A DNA stretch of 24,277 nt from a virus: positions 1 through 24,277 of IMG/VR virus record IMGVR_UViG_3300030388_000600. One strand, given 5' to 3'. A program made the translations under genes and the position numbers. Below, in pieces: positions 2,254 to 12,994 of the stretch. Numbering within the stretch: position 1 is the first letter of the stretch; each line of letters starts with the position of its first letter. The notes below the pieces were generated by a model. That model made no database searches. It was not told where the DNA came from and saw only the letters and a program-made list of their open reading frames with translations.

Positions 2254-4404
2254 ATGGCATCATTATCTAATATAAACGGGATATTTGACGTTCACTCTAC
2301 TGGGGCTATACTTTTTAGTACATCTCATGGAACTTCTGGACAGATATTAAGATCAAATGGTAATGCAGCTCCAACGTGGATACCACAAAGTGATATTGTA
2401 GGTGCATACCTACCTTTATCTGGAGGCACACTTACAGGAGCTACAGCTACAGCTTCTGGTATATCATTTACTGTTGGTGGAGCTTTAACCGTAAGTGGAA
2501 CTTCAACTCTGAGCGGCGGTCTTAAAGTTATAGGTCCAGGCAGTTACAATACTATTAGATCTGCAAATGATTACACACTAGGTTTAGATGATTCAAATGG
2601 AGTTAGTCAGTGGTGGTTTAAAGCTTATACTAATGGAGGTTTTGCTTTACATGAAAATACTGTAGGTGATAAATTTACTATAGCAGCTGGTGGTGCAGTG
2701 ACTTTTGGAGGAAGTATAACAGCGCCTAGTGCATCGATTCCTACTATGTCTGTTAATACAAATTTTGCAGGAGATATATTTCAATATGGATCATTAAAAT
2801 TAAATAGTACATATATTAATCTTGGTGAAAATGCATTAACTAAAAAAACATTATCAACAGCTTATTTTACTAATGGTACATCTAATCTTGCATGTAATAT
2901 ACAGTTTGTTAATGCGGCAGCACAAGGTTATTATAAAATTACTTTATCTGGGTCTTATTCATATCAAGATATATCAGGTAAACTAACAAAAGTAATTCCT
3001 TTTGGATATAATCCAAATGGTAGCATATGGAGAAGCGGAAACAATCAATCAGAAATAACTATAGCAACAGGAGGAGTTTCTAATAATTTTACAATTGGTG
3101 ATTTAACTTGGGACTCAACCGCAAGTAAATTTATAATTCCTATATATAAGCTTTCAAGTAACGGTAATAGTGTAAGGGTAACTGTAGAGCACTTTGGTGG
3201 AAACGGTAATAACTTAAACTTGATGACATTATCAAGTATTTATACACAAGCAGCCCCATCCCCATTCAACACTCGTCAATATCAAAATATTCGTGATAGA
3301 CTTGGAATTGGAACGAATTCCCCTGGGTACACATTACAGGTTAATGGTAATGCATACGTCAATAGTACATTATACGTTAATGGTCTAGCAACTTTTGATG
3401 ATCAAATAAATGTAACCAGTGGTTATTCTATAAATTTTGGTACGTCAAGATTACACTCAACAGATACTTCTTATTTTTTAGGAGGTAACGTTGGGATCGG
3501 AACATCTTCGCCTGGACCTAAACTACAAGTAGTGCAGACCATAGCTGATTGGACTGGAGGATTTAAAAACTATACAGCTGGTGGATATGGTCTTAGAGTT
3601 GATATGTCAGGAGGATCAGGACAGAACGCTGCTATACAAGCATATACAGCTACTGGAACTGGGCTTATAGTTAAAAATAATGGACTAGTTGGTATTGGAA
3701 CATTTACGCCTGATTATAAATTAGAAGTTGAAAGTACTGCAGATGCAGATTTAGTTTCTATAAAAAGCACAGCTATTGCTAATAATACCCAAATGAGATT
3801 AGGTATTAGCGGTAATGATTCTGTTATTAGTGGTACAGGTGGTTCTACTGGGGCTTTAGCTTTTAAAACTTATGGCACTGAAAGAATGCGAATTAAAGCA
3901 AATGGTCAAATAGATTTTGCATCTCCTGGTACGCCTAATCAATCGGGTATTTCAATGTTCGGTGGTACTAATGGAGGTATAATGTATATGTATCGTCCTG
4001 CGGGTCAAAATGGAGATATAATTAGGTTTCAAACAGCAATTTCCTCTATATCAAGCACAAGAGTAGGTTATATAAATACAACTGGAAGTGCAACTACGTA
4101 CAACTCAGCTTCAGATTATAGGTTAAAAGAAAATGTAACAAAAATAACAAACGCTTTAGATAGAGTTAATAAATTAAAACCTAGTAGATTTAACTTTATA
4201 ATAGAACCTAAAAATACTGTAGATGGTTTTATAGCTCATGAAGTTCAAGAAATTGTTCCAGAAGCCGTGACAGGTGTTAAGGATGATATTGATGAAAATG
4301 GAGACAATCATTATCAAGGTATGGATAACTCTAGATTAGTTCCATTATTAACCGCTGCGATACAAGAATTAGAAGCTAGAATAAAACAATTAGAAAATAA
4401 ATAA
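2254..4404 (+). CDS. Tail fibre with C-terminal S74 intramolecular chaperone (716 aa)
   Basis: The N-terminus is paralogous to the preceding fibre. Three VGIG-type repeats occur near residues 350 (LGIGTNSPGYTLQVNG), 413 (VGIGTSSPGPKLQV) and 479 (VGIGTFTPDYKLEV), about 65 residues apart. The C-terminus is a Peptidase_S74 domain. It contains SDYRLKEN at 620-627, VDGFIAHEVQEIVPEAV, then LVPLLTAAIQELEARIKQLENK as the closing coiled coil. In this family the domain folds the trimer and then cuts itself off. The Ser and Lys five residues apart (S620 and K625 here) match the catalytic pair of phage K1F endosialidase, so cleavage is predicted just before S620, releasing about 97 residues. It starts 3 nt after the previous stop, probably in the same transcript. 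Fibre role and S74 domain are confident; cleavage is predicted from motif conservation. Confidence 0.9.
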   Translation: MASLSNINGIFDVHSTGAILFSTSHGTSGQILRSNGNAAPTWIPQSDIVGAYLPLSGGTLTGATATASGISFTVGGALTVSGTSTLSGGLKVIGPGSYNTIRSANDYTLGLDDSNGVSQWWFKAYTNGGFALHENTVGDKFTIAAGGAVTFGGSITAPSASIPTMSVNTNFAGDIFQYGSLKLNSTYINLGENALTKKTLSTAYFTNGTSNLACNIQFVNAAAQGYYKITLSGSYSYQDISGKLTKVIPFGYNPNGSIWRSGNNQSEITIATGGVSNNFTIGDLTWDSTASKFIIPIYKLSSNGNSVRVTVEHFGGNGNNLNLMTLSSIYTQAAPSPFNTRQYQNIRDRLGIGTNSPGYTLQVNGNAYVNSTLYVNGLATFDDQINVTSGYSINFGTSRLHSTDTSYFLGGNVGIGTSSPGPKLQVVQTIADWTGGFKNYTAGGYGLRVDMSGGSGQNAAIQAYTATGTGLIVKNNGLVGIGTFTPDYKLEVESTADADLVSIKSTAIANNTQMRLGISGNDSVISGTGGSTGALAFKTYGTERMRIKANGQIDFASPGTPNQSGISMFGGTNGGIMYMYRPAGQNGDIIRFQTAISSISSTRVGYINTTGSATTYNSASDYRLKENVTKITNALDRVNKLKPSRFNFIIEPKNTVDGFIAHEVQEIVPEAVTGVKDDIDENGDNHYQGMDNSRLVPLLTAAIQELEARIKQLENK

Positions 4405-4405
4405 T

Positions 4406-7400
4406 ATGGCAATAATATATTCGTATCCTCAATTTGCTCCTAAACCGGAAGATTTACTTATTGGAACAGTGACATTAGATGAAAATGCAGTTGTACCAAT
4501 ATATGATAATCCTACAGTTAGTTTTACAATACAGAGCTTATTAGATATGATTGCACCTATAACAGGTGCTCAAAACTTACAACAAGTAACCAACATAGGT
4601 GCCACAACATCTAATGCAGTTACGTTTACTAGTGATATAAAAGTTACAGGAAGATTTTATGATTCAGGAGGATCACCCGGTGCAGCTGGCCAAGTGTTGT
4701 CATCAACAGTAACTGGAACTTCATGGATAGTTAATGCACCTGCATCAGTAACTAGTGTTGGTCTTACTATGCCTGCAGCTTTTTCTGTAGCTAATTCACC
4801 TGTTACAACAGCTGGGGTTTTAACAGTTACAGGAGCAGGAACAGCTCTTCAATATGTAAATGGTTTAGGTAATTTAGTTACTTTTCCAACAATACCTACA
4901 CAATATGTATTACCGCTTGCTGCTTCTGGCACTAGAGGAGGTATACAAATAGGATATACATCAGCTGGTAAAAACTATGCAATACAATTATCCTCAGAAA
5001 AAGCTTTTGTTAATGTTCCTTGGACTGATACATCTTATACTTTGCCAGCAGCTACAAATGCAGCATTAGGTGGTATAAAAATAGGTTATACAGATAATCT
5101 TAAAAATTATGCTGTAGAATTAGATGGTGATAGTGAAGCCTATGTTAATGTTCCTTGGACAGACACAGCTTATACATTGCCTTTAGCTGCTGACGGAACT
5201 AGAGGTGGTGTACAGATTGGTTATACTCAAGCTTCAACAAGAGATTACCCAGTTACATTAACTAGTGAAAAAATGCTTGTTACTGTACCATGGACTGACA
5301 CTCAAAATGCAAATCAAACTATTACAGGTGTTGGATCAGACAATACTGATTCTGGTATAATATTAAGTGCTAGTGGTGGAACTGTTTTAGTACTAGGAGC
5401 TGGTAGTGTTACAGCTGCACAAAGTGGTAATACAATAACATTAACTGGTACAGATACTGATACCGGTGTAACTGGGGTAACTGTAGCTATAGCAGATTCA
5501 ACAGGTGCGCCTCTTTCAGAAAGTATAACAAACAGAGAATTAACATTAACATCACACAAATATGTTGGTGGTACTAATGTAGGTTATGTACCGGAAGGTG
5601 GAACTGGTGATTTATATTTAAAAGGTGATGGAACTTGGGCTGCAGTACCTACAGGGCTACAGTTCAAAGGAACATGGGATGCAAGTAGTGGTGGTGGTGG
5701 AAGTCCAGATTTAACTTTAGCTGCTAATCAAGGTGATGGTTTTTTATGGATTACAAGTGTTGCTGGTACAGCATATCCAAATGGAGGTTCGGCAGCACCT
5801 AGTACATGGAACGTAGGAGATTGGGCTGTTTACGTTGGGGCTGCAGGATCTGGTACTTGGACAAGAGTACCTGCTACAAATTCTGGCGTAACTAGTATAA
5901 CTACAACTGATGGAACATATGTTGATTTAACACCTAACGCAGCAACAACTGGCGCTGTGACTGTTACAGCTGACCTAAGTGCTGCTGATGGTACTTCTGA
6001 TGTTAACACAAAGTTTTTAAGTAAAGATAACACCTGGGATGTCCCTAGCTACACAGGAGCAGGTGTAACAACTTTTACAAGCGTAGAAGGAACATATATA
6101 GATATAACTGATAACACAGCTGCAACTGGAGCTGTAGGTTTAGGAACTGTAGATTTAAATGCAGTTAATGGAACTTCTGTTGTTGGTACAAGGTTTTTGA
6201 GTAAAGATAATACGTGGGACGTACCTAGTTATACTACAAACACAAATACAACCTACGATTTTTTAGCTATTGAAGCTGTGCCAACAGCTACGGTTAATAC
6301 CACACCACCTATGGGTACAGGATACACCTCAGCTGTAAACGCAGCAACTACAGGTGGAAGTGGAAGTGGTATGACAGTTGATACAGTAGTTGCATCAGGA
6401 GGAGTTCAAACCGTTATAATAAATAAACCAGGTACTGGATATGTAATAGGTGATAATAATATAGTGATAAGTGGTGGAAACGGAAATGCTATAATAACTT
6501 TAGCTGGATCTGTTGGAAATATTAATCCTAATTTAAGACTTATAGATCAAGCTTTTGGGTTTGATGATATAAAACTAACTGGAGCTGGCACTACAACTAT
6601 AACTAGGACAGCTGACACTGGTATAACTTTTACATCAACAGATACCCAGGAAAATACAACTTGGTATGTAAGAGATTCTGCAGACGCAGATAAAACAGTT
6701 AATAATTCAAAATATTTAAAGTTTGTTACAGCAACAGGAGCATTAGGTACAGCTCTTACAGGTACGGGTACCACAGGTGATCCTTATTTAATGACGCTTA
6801 AATCACCTGATACAAACACTCAACTAGGCGTTGCAACAAGTTCAGCTTTAGGTGGTATAGAACTAGGTAGTAATACAGCATTAACACAAACGTATGAAAC
6901 AGGCGTAACAGGTGTGGCAAATAGAACATATCCAGTTCAATTAAATGCCGCTCGTCAAGCTGCTGTAAGTGTACCTTGGCTAAGCGGTGGAACATATAAT
7001 TGGGATGTAAGAGACAATGCATCTACGCCTGTAAATAAAACTTTACTTACTGGTGAAGTTTTACAATTTAAAACTGCAACTGGAGCTTTAGCTACTGGAG
7101 TAGCTGGAACAGGTACAAGTGCAGATCCTTATGTAATGACATTAACGTCACCAAATGATAATACAACATATTCTGATTTCATTGCTTCAACTGCTGGTGC
7201 CGTAGGAACCGCTGGTTTAGTACCTGCTCCAGCCGCTGGAACACAAGGAGGAACATATTATTTAAATGGTAACAAAAGCTTTAGTGTACCACCTGATACT
7301 ACTTATAGTAATTTTACAGCAGCAACTGCCGCCGCCGCTGGATCACCAGGTTTAGTACCAGGTCCAGCAGCCACTTATCAAAATAGATTTTTAAGAGGTG

Positions 7401-9790
7401 ATGCAACTTGGCAAATACCTGATACTGGACCAAATGATAATACAACTTATAGTATAGATGTCCCAAGTTCTACAACTAATATAAATTTAAAAGGAGCAAA
7501 CCCTAGTAGTAATGATGCTATAGCTTTAACATCTGGTACATACGTTTCTGTAACAAGAAATAGCGCTAGTCAATTAACGTTTGATTTATCAGCTGTTAAT
7601 GGAACTGATACTTTTGGAACAAGATTTTTAAGTAAAGACAATACGTGGGATGTACCTACTGCAACAAACATAGAAGTTATAGTTACACAAAGCGGTTTGA
7701 AATTTTACTTAAATGGAGTAATACAAGCTGACAATACTTTAATGTCTGGTTTTACATATAGATTTAACCAAGAAGACTCAACAAATAGCGGCCATCCTTT
7801 TAGGTTTTCCACTAATGCAAACAATAGCCCTGCTGCACCTTATACAACAGATGTAACAACAAACGGAACACCTGGATCAGCTGGAGCATATACTCAAATT
7901 ATTGTTACTAAAACAACACCAAATTTATATTATTATTGCAATGTTCATTCTAACATGGGTGGTTCAGCACCGAGAGAAACAACTTTCATTAGCTTAACAA
8001 CTACAGGAACTACAGGCACTTCAACTTTATCGAATGGTGTTTTAAATGTACCTAACTATGCGGATAGTAATGATAATTATTATGTAACAGCTGCTTCATA
8101 TACAACTGGCACACTAACTTTAACTAGAAATGGTGGCTTAGGAAGTTTAACAGCAACAGGATTTTTACAAGTAGGCACAGCTGCTACAGATGCTTTAGCT
8201 GGTGATACTACAACAATAACGGCGGCTCAAACTACAGCTATAACGGCTAACACAGCTAAAGTAACTGATTCTGGTTTACCAGCAATATTAAGTAATGGTA
8301 CAGTACCTTCTTTAAATACAAATATTACTGGCGCAGAAGTTAGAACACTTATTGGCGCTGGAACTGGAGATGGTGATGGAGACGTAACTTTAACAGGTGT
8401 GCAAACATTAACTAACAAAACGTTAACTATACCTAAAATTGATGTTATTGAACCATCTGCAGCTGTATTAACAATTAAAGGTACTGGATCATTAGGAGGA
8501 GATGCTAAAATTATACTTAATTGCTACGTTAATTCACACGGTCAAACATTAGCTGCACAACCTCATAGCGCTGGTGTTACTAATACAATGTTATTACCAA
8601 CTGGAGCTAACTCAACATTAGTAGCTGAAACAACATCAACTTTAGCTGGTGTTACCGGCAGAGGAGCAAGCACATCTACTGCTTCAACTTTTAGTGGAGG
8701 TATAAATTCCGGAGTTTTAAACGTTAATGGAAGTGGTAGTAATGGTTACTTATATGTAACTGGAAATTCTCAGGGAAATCAACCTACCAATAATCAAGGT
8801 ATGGCTTTTTCTTATAATAATAATGCAGGACTTAGAGAAAATGAATTATTTTGGAACCCTGGAATTCAAACAGCCGCAGAAAATGCTACTAAAAGTTTTA
8901 TAATAATAAATCAATATTTAGATTCAGCTAACTCAAATGCCAGAGTTACAGATAGTTTATTTAAACTTTATGGTAATGGTAATCTAGAATTAACTGGGCC
9001 AACAGCAACTTCAACTATTGCTAACACTTATTGGAGAATGCCAAAAGTAGCTGGTGCAGCTGGTCAGATTTTAGCAAGAGCCAGTTCAACTATAGATTTA
9101 GTTTGGACAACGCTAGCTACAGGAGACATAACTGGTGTAACGGCTGGAACTGGTATGACTGGTGGTGGAACAAGTGGTAATGTTACTTTAAACGCTATTG
9201 GTGGAAATGGTATTACAGCTAATGCAAACAATATAACAATGTCTGGTTCTTACACCGGAGATCTTACTGTTACTGGAGATATTGTTCCTGATTCTTATAG
9301 ATTTAGAGCTAATCTAGCTAATCCTACAACAAGCACAGCTACATTATATGATCAATCTAGTGTAGGAGCTACAATATCAGCTTATAGATTTGCTGTAAGA
9401 AATTCTGATGGTACAAACATGTTAGCATCTGCATTGTTTACAAATACATCTTTAACAGTTGTAGGTGATGTTATTGCTTTTGGTAGTCCATCAGATATTA
9501 GATTAAAAGAAAATATTAAGCCAATAGAATCTGCTTTAGACAAAGTAAGCAAATTACAAGGTGTTACTTTTAATTGGAAAAAATCAGATAGCATATTAGA
9601 TATAAAAGAAGATATAGGTTTTATTGCTCAAGACGTACAAAAAGTTTTACCTGAACTTGTAAAAGAAAATAAAGATGGTATACTTTCTATGAGACATCAG
9701 GGTATTGCCCCAATATTACTTGAAGCTATAAAAGAGTTAAAAGCTGAAATAGAAGAGTTAAAGTTAAACAAGTGTAATTGTAATAAATAA
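4406..9790 (+). CDS. Giant modular tail fibre with internal repeats, cupredoxin-like segment and C-terminal S74 domain (1794 aa)
   Basis: Largest gene of the window. The N-terminal ~50 residues (MAIIYSYPQFAPKPEDLLIG, then VPIYDNPTVSFTI) resemble a leader I recall from marine phage fibres, and differ from the LSNIN start of the two upstream genes. Next come three 44-45-residue repeats ending in VPWTDT (residues 169-299). The motif FLSKDNTWDVP occurs at 537, 597 and 1074, with looser versions (YLKGDGTW, FLRGDATW) between. A duplicated WxVRD module starts at 753 and 866. A cupredoxin-like segment spans about 1090-1190 (H1130, C1178, H1181, M1184). TLTNKTLT lies near 1334 and GDITGVTAGTGMTGGGTSG near 1574. 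The S74 domain has S1696 and K1701 in SPSDIRLKEN, then DIGFIAQDVQKVLPELV, a helical tail and KCNCNK. Self-cleavage before S1696 is predicted. It is likely a long trimeric fibre; the modules suggest growth by shuffling and duplication. Confidence 0.9.
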   Translation: MAIIYSYPQFAPKPEDLLIGTVTLDENAVVPIYDNPTVSFTIQSLLDMIAPITGAQNLQQVTNIGATTSNAVTFTSDIKVTGRFYDSGGSPGAAGQVLSSTVTGTSWIVNAPASVTSVGLTMPAAFSVANSPVTTAGVLTVTGAGTALQYVNGLGNLVTFPTIPTQYVLPLAASGTRGGIQIGYTSAGKNYAIQLSSEKAFVNVPWTDTSYTLPAATNAALGGIKIGYTDNLKNYAVELDGDSEAYVNVPWTDTAYTLPLAADGTRGGVQIGYTQASTRDYPVTLTSEKMLVTVPWTDTQNANQTITGVGSDNTDSGIILSASGGTVLVLGAGSVTAAQSGNTITLTGTDTDTGVTGVTVAIADSTGAPLSESITNRELTLTSHKYVGGTNVGYVPEGGTGDLYLKGDGTWAAVPTGLQFKGTWDASSGGGGSPDLTLAANQGDGFLWITSVAGTAYPNGGSAAPSTWNVGDWAVYVGAAGSGTWTRVPATNSGVTSITTTDGTYVDLTPNAATTGAVTVTADLSAADGTSDVNTKFLSKDNTWDVPSYTGAGVTTFTSVEGTYIDITDNTAATGAVGLGTVDLNAVNGTSVVGTRFLSKDNTWDVPSYTTNTNTTYDFLAIEAVPTATVNTTPPMGTGYTSAVNAATTGGSGSGMTVDTVVASGGVQTVIINKPGTGYVIGDNNIVISGGNGNAIITLAGSVGNINPNLRLIDQAFGFDDIKLTGAGTTTITRTADTGITFTSTDTQENTTWYVRDSADADKTVNNSKYLKFVTATGALGTALTGTGTTGDPYLMTLKSPDTNTQLGVATSSALGGIELGSNTALTQTYETGVTGVANRTYPVQLNAARQAAVSVPWLSGGTYNWDVRDNASTPVNKTLLTGEVLQFKTATGALATGVAGTGTSADPYVMTLTSPNDNTTYSDFIASTAGAVGTAGLVPAPAAGTQGGTYYLNGNKSFSVPPDTTYSNFTAATAAAAGSPGLVPGPAATYQNRFLRGDATWQIPDTGPNDNTTYSIDVPSSTTNINLKGANPSSNDAIALTSGTYVSVTRNSASQLTFDLSAVNGTDTFGTRFLSKDNTWDVPTATNIEVIVTQSGLKFYLNGVIQADNTLMSGFTYRFNQEDSTNSGHPFRFSTNANNSPAAPYTTDVTTNGTPGSAGAYTQIIVTKTTPNLYYYCNVHSNMGGSAPRETTFISLTTTGTTGTSTLSNGVLNVPNYADSNDNYYVTAASYTTGTLTLTRNGGLGSLTATGFLQVGTAATDALAGDTTTITAAQTTAITANTAKVTDSGLPAILSNGTVPSLNTNITGAEVRTLIGAGTGDGDGDVTLTGVQTLTNKTLTIPKIDVIEPSAAVLTIKGTGSLGGDAKIILNCYVNSHGQTLAAQPHSAGVTNTMLLPTGANSTLVAETTSTLAGVTGRGASTSTASTFSGGINSGVLNVNGSGSNGYLYVTGNSQGNQPTNNQGMAFSYNNNAGLRENELFWNPGIQTAAENATKSFIIINQYLDSANSNARVTDSLFKLYGNGNLELTGPTATSTIANTYWRMPKVAGAAGQILARASSTIDLVWTTLATGDITGVTAGTGMTGGGTSGNVTLNAIGGNGITANANNITMSGSYTGDLTVTGDIVPDSYRFRANLANPTTSTATLYDQSSVGATISAYRFAVRNSDGTNMLASALFTNTSLTVVGDVIAFGSPSDIRLKENIKPIESALDKVSKLQGVTFNWKKSDSILDIKEDIGFIAQDVQKVLPELVKENKDGILSMRHQGIAPILLEAIKELKAEIEELKLNKCNCNK
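4910..5302 (+). repeat. Three in-frame 44-45-residue protein repeats in the giant fibre
   Basis: Units begin at residues 169, 213 and 258 of the 1794-residue fibre. The shared pattern is LPLAA-x-GTRGGIQIGYT, then about 10 variable residues, then V-x-VPWTDT. The VPW positions (202, 247, 292) are exactly 45 residues apart. A fourth, more diverged copy (GGIELGS... VSVPW) lies near residues 815-858. The DNA copies have drifted, so this is an old protein-level duplication rather than a recent DNA repeat. Confidence 0.85.
6662..7153 (+). repeat. Duplicated ~50-residue module (WxVRD ... TATGAL ... MTLxSP) in the giant fibre
   Basis: Copy 1 covers bases 6662-6808 (residues 753-801) and copy 2 covers 7001-7153 (residues 866-916). 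Both read W-Y/D-VRD, about 15 variable residues, L-x-F-x-TATGAL, then TG-x-GT and DPY-x-MTL-x-SP. They are separated by the diverged fourth copy of the VPW repeat, so the duplicated unit may have been larger. Confidence 0.8.
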
Positions 9791-11037: not shown

Positions 11038-11128
11038 GTTTGTAAAAAAACAAGTGATACTATAACTAAGGATACCCGAAAATAAAGTTTAACCCTAAAA
11101 ACCAAAACACGATGACTTATTTTTATTC
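11038..11128 (+). promoter_or_regulatory. Spacer before the chaperonin block, candidate promoter region
   Basis: After a long run of touching genes this is the largest spacer of the window (74 nt to the first ATG, or 104 nt if translation begins at 11142). It separates fibre genes from the chaperonin genes, so a new promoter is reasonable. I see no clear -10/-35, no Bacteroidetes TAxxTTTG box and no hairpin terminator. The candidate rests on position only. Confidence 0.25.
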
Positions 11129-11411
11129 GTTGAGCTCAACTATGAGCCAACCACAAACACCACAGATTACCGAAGAAACTATTAAAGTATGGAAACATTT
11201 AGCCGAGAAGAAAAACTGGCGAATTGTTCAACTACCTAATGGTTATTTTCAAACCGAACACCGTGACCTAGAAGTAAAAGACAAATGGTACGATGTAACA
11301 AGGCGTGAAACTATGGAAGCCGCAGAGATTGCAATTGATGGTAGTGTTGATCACTATGCAAAAAAAGTAGATTTCTTAAAAGGGCCTAAGGTAGTTAAGA
11401 CGTTTAAATAA
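11112..11411 (+). CDS. Hypothetical small protein upstream of groEL (99 aa, or 89 aa from the second start)
   Basis: Small charged protein with the core ITEETIKVWKHLAEKKNW, then IVQLPNGYFQTEHRD and a helix with METMEAAE-like spacing (RRETMEAAEIAIDGSVDHY). It ends in a Lys-rich tail. The Trp/Tyr pattern suggests a compact alpha/beta fold; I do not recognise the family. Two starts are possible. The ATG at 11112 gives a 10-residue Ser-rich leader (MTYFYSLSST). The ATG at 11142 gives MSQPQTPQITEE and lies directly behind a perfect 12-bp palindrome. I favour 11142 slightly. It lies 32 nt upstream of groEL and may be cotranscribed with it. Confidence 0.55.
   Translation: MTYFYSLSSTMSQPQTPQITEETIKVWKHLAEKKNWRIVQLPNGYFQTEHRDLEVKDKWYDVTRRETMEAAEIAIDGSVDHYAKKVDFLKGPKVVKTFK
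11129..11140. promoter_or_regulatory. Perfect 12-bp palindrome GTTGAGCTCAAC
   Basis: This palindrome has no spacer and ends one base before the alternative ATG at 11142. A zero-loop palindrome suits a dimeric DNA-binding protein better than an RNA hairpin. A winged-helix candidate is encoded about 2 kb downstream. It could also be chance within the first codons of the 99-aa reading. Confidence 0.3.
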
Positions 11412-11443: not shown

Positions 11444-12994
11444 ATGTCAAACGCAATCGTTAAGAATTTAAACTTCGGTTTAGATGCTAAGGATCAAGTG
11501 TTTGCTGGTATTACAAAACTTACACAAGCTGTTAGCTCCACTCTTGGAGCTAGTGGTAAGTGTGTTATGTTAGAAGATGCCAATGGCAAACCTGTGATTA
11601 CAAAAGATGGTGTAACAGTAGCTGAAGCTATAACACTATTAGATCCTGTTGAAAACATGGGAGCAACACTTTTAAAAGAAGCTGCTAGAAAAACAGTTAA
11701 AGAAGCTGGTGATGGAACTACAACAGCTACAATTTTAGCTCATGCTATTTTAGAAGAAGCTATAAAAAGAGATAACATAAGTACTAGAGACTTAAAATTA
11801 GGTATTAACACAGCTGTTGATGCTGCTATAGAATATTTAGAAGCTGTAGCAATACCTGTTAAAGGTGAAATGATTGATCAAGTAGCCACTATATCTACAA
11901 ACAATGATCCAGAGCTTGGTAAGATTATAGCCGATGCATTTAGATCTGTTGGTGAACATGGTGTAGTAATGATGGAGACAACAGAAATGTCAGAGACAAG
12001 TTTTGAAGTTATTGATGGTATACAGTATGATAAAGGATTAAAGAATATACATTTTGTAACTAATCAAGATATTAAAACAGCGGAGTTAGATAATCCATTA
12101 GTTTTACTGGTTGAATCTCAAATAGATAATATTAGAAAAATACAAGGTATACTAGAGTATGTTATTAAAAATAACAAGTCTTTATTGATTATAGGTGATG
12201 CGGAACCACAAGTGATGTCTGCATTAGCTATGAATAAAATTAAAGGCAATATAAAAGTTAATATAATTGATGCACCTACATATGGTATTAGTAAAAAAGA
12301 AACACTACGTGATCTTGCTTTGCTAACAGGAGCTACAATTATAAATGAAGACTTAGGTGATGATATAGATTTAATACAACCAGAACAGTTAGGTAAGTGT
12401 TTAAAAGCTGTATCTAGTGAAGCAGAGACAATTATACAAGTAGGTGAAACAACGCAAGAAGTAAAAGATTTAATAAAAGAAATACAAAATACTATTGCTG
12501 AAACTAAAATACCTGCTATTATAATTAAAAATGAAAAAAGATTAGCTAGACTATCTGGTAAAGTTGCTATTGTTCAAGTGGGCGCTAATTCAGAAATTGA
12601 ATTACAAGAGAAACGAGATAGAATAGAAGACGCTATATGTGCTACTAAAGCAGCAATTAAACAAGGTATTGTTCCTGGTGGAGGTGTTGCGCTACTAAAT
12701 GCTTCTAAAATATTTCCACATAGTGAAGGTCAAAAGGTTTTATATGCAGCAATTCAAGCTCCGTTTAAAATAATTTTAAGTAACGCTGGTATCACAGACT
12801 ACCAAGTGCCAAAAGAATTAGGAGATGGAATTAATGTAGTTACAGGAGATATGGTAAATATGGTAGAAAAAGGTATAGTTGATCCTTTGTTAGTAACTAA
12901 AAGTGCTTTAAGGAACGCTGCCTCGGTAGCAACAACTATTCTTTCTACTGATTGTGTAATTAATAATTTAAGAATTAATGAAAGCAATAGGTAG
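11444..12994 (+). CDS. groEL: Phage-encoded GroEL-type chaperonin (516 aa)
   Basis: Group I chaperonin subunit: forms a ring that encloses unfolded proteins and refolds them using ATP. Nucleotide-site motifs are intact: TLGASGK at 33-39 (E. coli has TLGPKG), TKDGVTVAEAI with D55, GDGTTTAT with D90 (E. coli D87), and IEDAICATKAA with D396 (E. coli D398), followed by VPGGGVALL. The apical domain is present but diverged from bacterial GroEL. LARLSGKVAIVQVGANSE marks the return to the intermediate domain. At 516 residues it is about 30 shorter than the usual ~545, and the C-terminal GGM tail is missing; it ends NNLRINESNR. It overlaps the groES gene by 17 nt. Its divergence and setting between virion genes point to a dedicated viral chaperonin, probably for capsid or fibre proteins. 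Clients are inferred. Confidence 0.96.
   Translation: MSNAIVKNLNFGLDAKDQVFAGITKLTQAVSSTLGASGKCVMLEDANGKPVITKDGVTVAEAITLLDPVENMGATLLKEAARKTVKEAGDGTTTATILAHAILEEAIKRDNISTRDLKLGINTAVDAAIEYLEAVAIPVKGEMIDQVATISTNNDPELGKIIADAFRSVGEHGVVMMETTEMSETSFEVIDGIQYDKGLKNIHFVTNQDIKTAELDNPLVLLVESQIDNIRKIQGILEYVIKNNKSLLIIGDAEPQVMSALAMNKIKGNIKVNIIDAPTYGISKKETLRDLALLTGATIINEDLGDDIDLIQPEQLGKCLKAVSSEAETIIQVGETTQEVKDLIKEIQNTIAETKIPAIIIKNEKRLARLSGKVAIVQVGANSEIELQEKRDRIEDAICATKAAIKQGIVPGGGVALLNASKIFPHSEGQKVLYAAIQAPFKIILSNAGITDYQVPKELGDGINVVTGDMVNMVEKGIVDPLLVTKSALRNAASVATTILSTDCVINNLRINESNR

Follow-up and report, generated by a model that had tools for sequence, protein, structure and literature searches.

Can a phage tail fibre contain a copper protein? 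The question is raised by a segment inside a 1794-aa fibre encoded in a viral record of 24,277 bases, which was analysed as a whole and is referred to here as the window. Portal, terminase, holin and M15-type endolysin genes are recognised in it. As the terminase is closest to those of phages of Flavobacterium, Cellulophaga and Tenacibaculum, the host of the phage is probably a marine Bacteroidetes.

The fibre and its cupredoxin-like segment

An initial annotation of this DNA had described fibre residues 1090–1190, which map to window positions 7673–7975, as cupredoxin-like, with H1130, C1178, H1181 and M1184 as possible copper ligands. The residue numbering was found to be exact, and the four codons are located within positions 7793–7957. 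The features that are relevant for the analysis are the following:

2254–4404, + strand: second fibre with an S74 domain, 5′ of the domain-bearing fibre (PF13884, E 2e-12)
4406–9790, + strand: tail fibre of 1794 aa carrying the domain (ORF; tail-fibre PHROGs)
7658–7978, + strand: cupredoxin-like domain, aa about 1085–1191 (HMM envelope, alignments, AlphaFold2, Foldseek and VIA-align, boundary in fibre relative L268)
7793–7795, + strand: H1130, putative first copper ligand (invariant in eight relatives; profile alignment with copper-bind proteins)
7937–7939, + strand: C1178, putative thiolate ligand, strand-terminal in the model (conservation; AlphaFold2 model; profile alignment)
7946–7948, + strand: H1181, loop residue and putative second His ligand (conservation; profile alignment)
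7955–7957, + strand: M1184, putative axial ligand (conservation; profile alignment)
9491–9664, + strand: Peptidase_S74 intramolecular chaperone domain, fibre aa 1696–1753 (PF13884, E 1.3e-20)

The C-terminus of the fibre passes PF13884 with 73.8 bits (cut-off 22), and the protein is hence an S74-terminated tail fibre. The two S74-terminated fibres, 2254–4404 and 4406–9790, stand in tandem. Shortly past the fibre region, a GroEL-like chaperonin gene is present at 11444–12994 (phrog_5725, 2.8e-131; PF00118, 2.6e-59); no GroES was recognised in the window, and ORF 11112–11411 has no Pfam match.

The whole fibre contains merely four Cys and six His. The pattern C-x2-H-x2-M is found in it once, at residue 1178, whereas 0.00013 occurrences are expected from composition. 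This expected count, together with the conservation of the pattern among relatives, rules out a chance motif.

Fibre relative L268 aligns with residues 1–1084 and stops where the domain begins. The closest fibres have the N-terminal part in common and several of them also the S74 end, but the domain is missing, and among relatives of the first 698 residues it is absent in all 77 loci. Being absent from the closest relatives, the domain is an exchangeable module. An element, FLSKDNTWDVP, is present three times in the fibre, before residues 544, 604 and 1081, and the domain is inserted right after the third copy; these repeats may be recombination points. Phage structural proteins also have exchangeable beta-sandwich insertions of other kinds, such as Ig-like domains and further accessory domains; unlike the fibre domain, these have no conserved metal ligand set.

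Predicted fold and links to copper proteins

An AlphaFold2 model computed with 47 relatives in the alignment is all-beta, with eight strands (pLDDT 85.4, pTM 0.79), and its confidence drops beyond aa 1190. In the model, C98 (equivalent to C1178) closes strand 94–98, the His and Met that follow lie in loop 99–105, and H1130 immediately precedes strand 52–55. The predicted structure hence combines a beta-sandwich of about 100 residues, a mid-domain His and a strand-end Cys followed by a His/Met loop, in agreement with cupredoxins, which have a Greek-key sandwich of 7–8 strands with the Cys closing the penultimate one.

When the model was compared with the PDB by Foldseek, the top matches were a three-domain nitrite reductase (2dv6), rusticyanin, AcoP and multicopper oxidases. 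Cupredoxins account for most of the best matches, some rows corresponding to the unrelated SO1698 peptidase; the best E value was 1.2e-3, with no match below 0.001. The best structural match is the N-terminal copper domain of 2dv6, the Hyphomicrobium denitrificans nitrite reductase (VIA-align Z 9.9, 107 residues, rmsd 4.0, 14% identity), followed by rusticyanin (Z 8.5, 105 residues, rmsd 3.0). Unlike the fibre domain, that of 2dv6 is the partner domain of a catalytic enzyme.

The first 36 Foldseek rows include azurin loop variants CAAHAAM and CTPHPFM as well as a pseudoazurin with an amicyanin loop, all of them with the spacing C-x2-H-x2-M; the titles of PDB entries 2fta ('CTPHPFM') and 2ux6 identify it as the amicyanin spacing. 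As these engineered loops share the fibre pattern, the latter reads as amicyanin-like, and neither as CuA-like nor as an intermediate between plastocyanin and CuA. The initial annotation had considered H-x2-M to be closer to CuA, a view that has to be abandoned: the domain contains one Cys, and CuA sites need two bridging Cys, in a C-x3-C arrangement. A binuclear site like that of cytochrome oxidase subunit II would account for the H-x2-M spacing at the motif end; with a single Cys in the domain and no second conserved Cys in the relatives, its probability is negligible and we rejected it.

The likeness to amicyanin, and to azurin and pseudoazurin with engineered loops (2fta, 3fs9, 2ux6), comprises the C-x2-H-x2-M loop, an upstream His and a single-domain cupredoxin fold. 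There are also differences. Amicyanin is a periplasmic electron carrier, whereas the present domain sits inside a phage fibre. Typical type 1 proteins have Asn or Ser next to the first His (Asn in amicyanin), where the window's fibre has Pro, a point against the copper reading; the loop of the fibre domain also lacks the Pro of C-T-P-H.

Direct sequence searches of Pfam and the PDB with the window's copy gave no match. The copy does not reach the cut-off of PF00127 Copper-bind, the plastocyanin/azurin family, and is hence not classed as a member, whereas a relative from Woeseiaceae does (L147, 21.4 bits, cut-off 21.2; a second one, L150, scores 20.4). The Woeseiaceae match covers positions 16–98 of the 99 of PF00127. 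Both relatives (L147:3393-5279 and L150:3411-5291) are lipoproteins with a cadherin-like domain followed by a C-terminal family copy, and the middle part of L147 holds a zinc-protease-like motif, HEYFHVH.

Profile comparisons point in the same direction. A profile of the bacterial/pelagiphage branch (A3), aligned by hhalign with 31 copper-bind proteins of bacterial genomes, gave a probability of 73% (P 3e-5), while 60 column shuffles reached at most 2.3%. In this alignment both His ligands and the Cys coincide with those of the copper-bind proteins, and the Met lies within about one residue of its counterpart. A profile including the window's branch gave 27%, against at most 1.3% in 100 shuffles. 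In the PDB, profile A3 finds plastocyanins at E 0.034–0.37, its two top matches being rejected as repeat artefacts. With profile A1 the matches are mainly heavy chains of antibodies, none better than E 0.4, plus one pseudoazurin. Weak matches to PF02018 CBM_4_9 were obtained with 4 of 47 copies (best 1e-4). Taken together, the predicted fold, the homologues that bridge to PF00127 and the comparison with copper proteins uphold the description of the segment as cupredoxin-like.

A family of its own among marine phages, and the fate of its ligands

The initial annotation had pointed to similar segments in other marine phages, and tblastn and profile searches do find many. With a 120-aa query, tblastn identified relatives in at least 225 phage records, mainly of Synechococcus and Prochlorococcus phages and also of Pelagibacter and Methylophilales phages; a profile scan of IMG/VR confirmed at least 553 relatives among the 600 matches listed. 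Each of 21 phages searched genome-wide has one to six copies. The matching PHROGs comprise tail fibres and a tail-fibre connector as well as baseplate wedge proteins and structural proteins of the virion, and the domain corresponds to unannotated parts of phrog_30742, phrog_693 and phrog_27200. Neither Pfam nor NCBIfam has a family of its own for it. The domain is best read as a new cupredoxin family that is used as a virion module.

Copies are also present in sequences assigned to bacteria. In a SAR86 genome, a stand-alone lipoprotein of 161 aa (L146:4893-5378) consists of a lipobox and a single copy of the domain; its gene adjoins dehydrogenase genes and not phage genes, and the protein is a candidate for an undescribed blue-copper lipoprotein of a marine bacterium. 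A host-chromosome origin was discarded for the SAR11 copies, as L143 at least is phage: on this contig, assigned to Pelagibacter, a T7-like tail fibre (L143:3333-5441; PF03906, 7.5e-33) contains a copy. L143 would be a prophage or a co-captured phage. Outside these groups, the Marseillevirus/Pithovirus 'Beta-sandwich proteins' A0A481YVH3, A0A481Z6J5 and A0A481Z7Q7 of BFVD match the model with E about 1e-5, and may possibly be family members.

Six positions (H, P, C, H, M, G) do not vary within a first set of eight diverse relatives. Some of these relatives were found with patterns that contain ligand residues, which biases conservation in such sets. The set of phage records, obtained by tblastn and profile search with no motif required, is more trustworthy. 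It includes 37 fully aligned copies: 31 have H/C/H/M, one has H/C/H/Q, and five lack the Cys and the second His. When all copies with the four positions aligned are considered (n = 192), the corresponding numbers are 182, 2 and 8.

Free loss of H, C or M in homologues that keep the fold would, according to the initial annotation, refute its reading. Ligands are indeed lost, in 8 of 192 copies, one of which is predicted to have the same fold, but Cys and second His go jointly: they agree in 192 of 192 copies, both being present in 184 and absent in 8 (Fisher 2.5e-14, with kinship ignored). When the ligand columns were left out of the tree, about six changes were required to explain the loss, two of them on well-supported branches. 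Two independent comparisons are too few to reach significance, and relatedness is thus not fully excluded as the source of the joint loss.

The ligand-less copy of SAR86, with N, S, A and M at the four positions, is predicted to adopt the same fold (pLDDT 88.5, from an alignment that includes ligand-complete relatives), and its model best matches 2dv6 (Z 7.8) and rusticyanin (Z 7.7). The ligands are hence dispensable for the predicted fold, which makes their retention elsewhere more telling. It also follows that the domain can exist, and be of use, in the absence of copper. ORF130 of phage S-CREM2 (L341), for which 24 unique peptides were detected in the virion proteome (PMC10665884), likewise contains a copy devoid of the ligands. 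We discarded these data as proof that the ligand-complete domain is in virions; since the copy lacks the ligands, they show just that a family member is part of a protein detected in the virion.

These copies, the SAR86 one by its predicted fold and the S-CREM2 one by its detection in a virion protein, favour the idea that a copper-protein fold now serves, in the manner of Ig-like domains, for adhesion or as a spacer, with the ligands as empty ancestral leftovers. We regard this as very unlikely, as 31 of the 37 motif-free copies retain all four ligands in spite of their divergence in sequence, and leftovers should decay singly, whereas Cys and second His are lost together.

His2-Cys-Met sites are able to bind Zn under copper scarcity, and free copper is very low in the cytoplasm, where the fibre is made. 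The same fold and site could therefore hold zinc or another metal as a structural staple, with no redox or copper-specific role. The sequence evidence is equally compatible with such a staple; against it, an axial Met that can be exchanged for Gln is typical of type 1 copper sites, and we consider the staple rather unlikely. The exchange occurs with C and H kept in two copies (L202, and the L145 copy at aa about 1502). A Met-to-Gln replacement is the natural axial exchange in stellacyanin (PMC4059628). A partial copy in L173 has the Cys, the His and then, after a longer loop, a Glu.

A proposed copper-loaded module on the fibre

The retention of the ligand set under divergence, the amicyanin spacing, the axial exchange in the style of type 1 sites and the joint loss of Cys and His make copper binding likely, and the metal bound by the fibre domain is probably copper. 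We accordingly favour, as fairly probable, the interpretation that the S74 fibre carries a cupredoxin module of about 105 residues with a full type 1 ligand set, surface-exposed and exchangeable, which is loaded with copper and serves as a contact patch. The module would be synthesised metal-free in the host cytoplasm and displayed at the surface of the fibre. It would acquire one copper ion, presumably from seawater or at the time of lysis. This ion would then fix the ligand loop, and the barrel end with C-x2-H-x2-M would form a rigid patch that contacts the host surface, a role that we infer from the location of the module.

Metal sites in tail fibres have a precedent. The HxH motifs of T4 gp37 bind iron, and fibres of Alteromonas phage R22Y are predicted to do likewise (PMC11705849). 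The fibre domain has in common with them that it would be a tail-fibre metal site; it differs in that their iron is coordinated by HxH motifs that are paired within the trimeric fibre, whereas here the ligands are His2-Cys-Met in a beta-sandwich. The Trojan Horse proposal made for the iron sites (PMC11705849) suggests a parallel in which the loaded copper site is bound by an outer-membrane receptor of the host for copper or cuproproteins, and thereby serves adsorption. The presence of the domain in fibres and baseplate proteins fits this mechanism. No receptor is known, however, hosts as different as cyanobacteria and probable flavobacteria have no known receptor in common, and some copies belong to structural proteins without fibre annotation, so that we judge it quite unlikely. 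In the literature searched, fibre metal is discussed just for iron at HxH motifs, and a type 1 ligand set conserved among cyanophages, pelagiphages and a probable flavophage, in their structural proteins, would widen the Trojan-horse metal idea to copper.

Returning to the copper-loaded contact module, the recurrence of the domain in structural proteins of marine phages suggests that the particles carry copper. A more tentative extension, for which we would claim less than an even chance, is that many marine phages have one to several copper-loaded cupredoxins in fibres or baseplates, their virions being copper proteins with a metal-dependent adsorption step. If true, part of the copper in the sea would be tightly bound in virions as a pool of its own, and copper domains would be common to phages and bacterial blue-copper lipoproteins, partly lost where unneeded.

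Type 1 copper proteins as such are not new to phages: cyanophages carry petE, encoding plastocyanin, as an auxiliary metabolic gene (PMC3037559). The petE product is a separate soluble electron carrier of photosynthesis, whereas the domain described here is built into structural proteins. A search of the literature, limited to open papers, returned no description of a cupredoxin domain recurring in phage fibres. Cupredoxins being already known, what is new with respect to the open literature searched is the recurring insert in phage fibres; a very common domain, at present annotated as 'tail fibre' or 'hypothetical', can thus be given a name.
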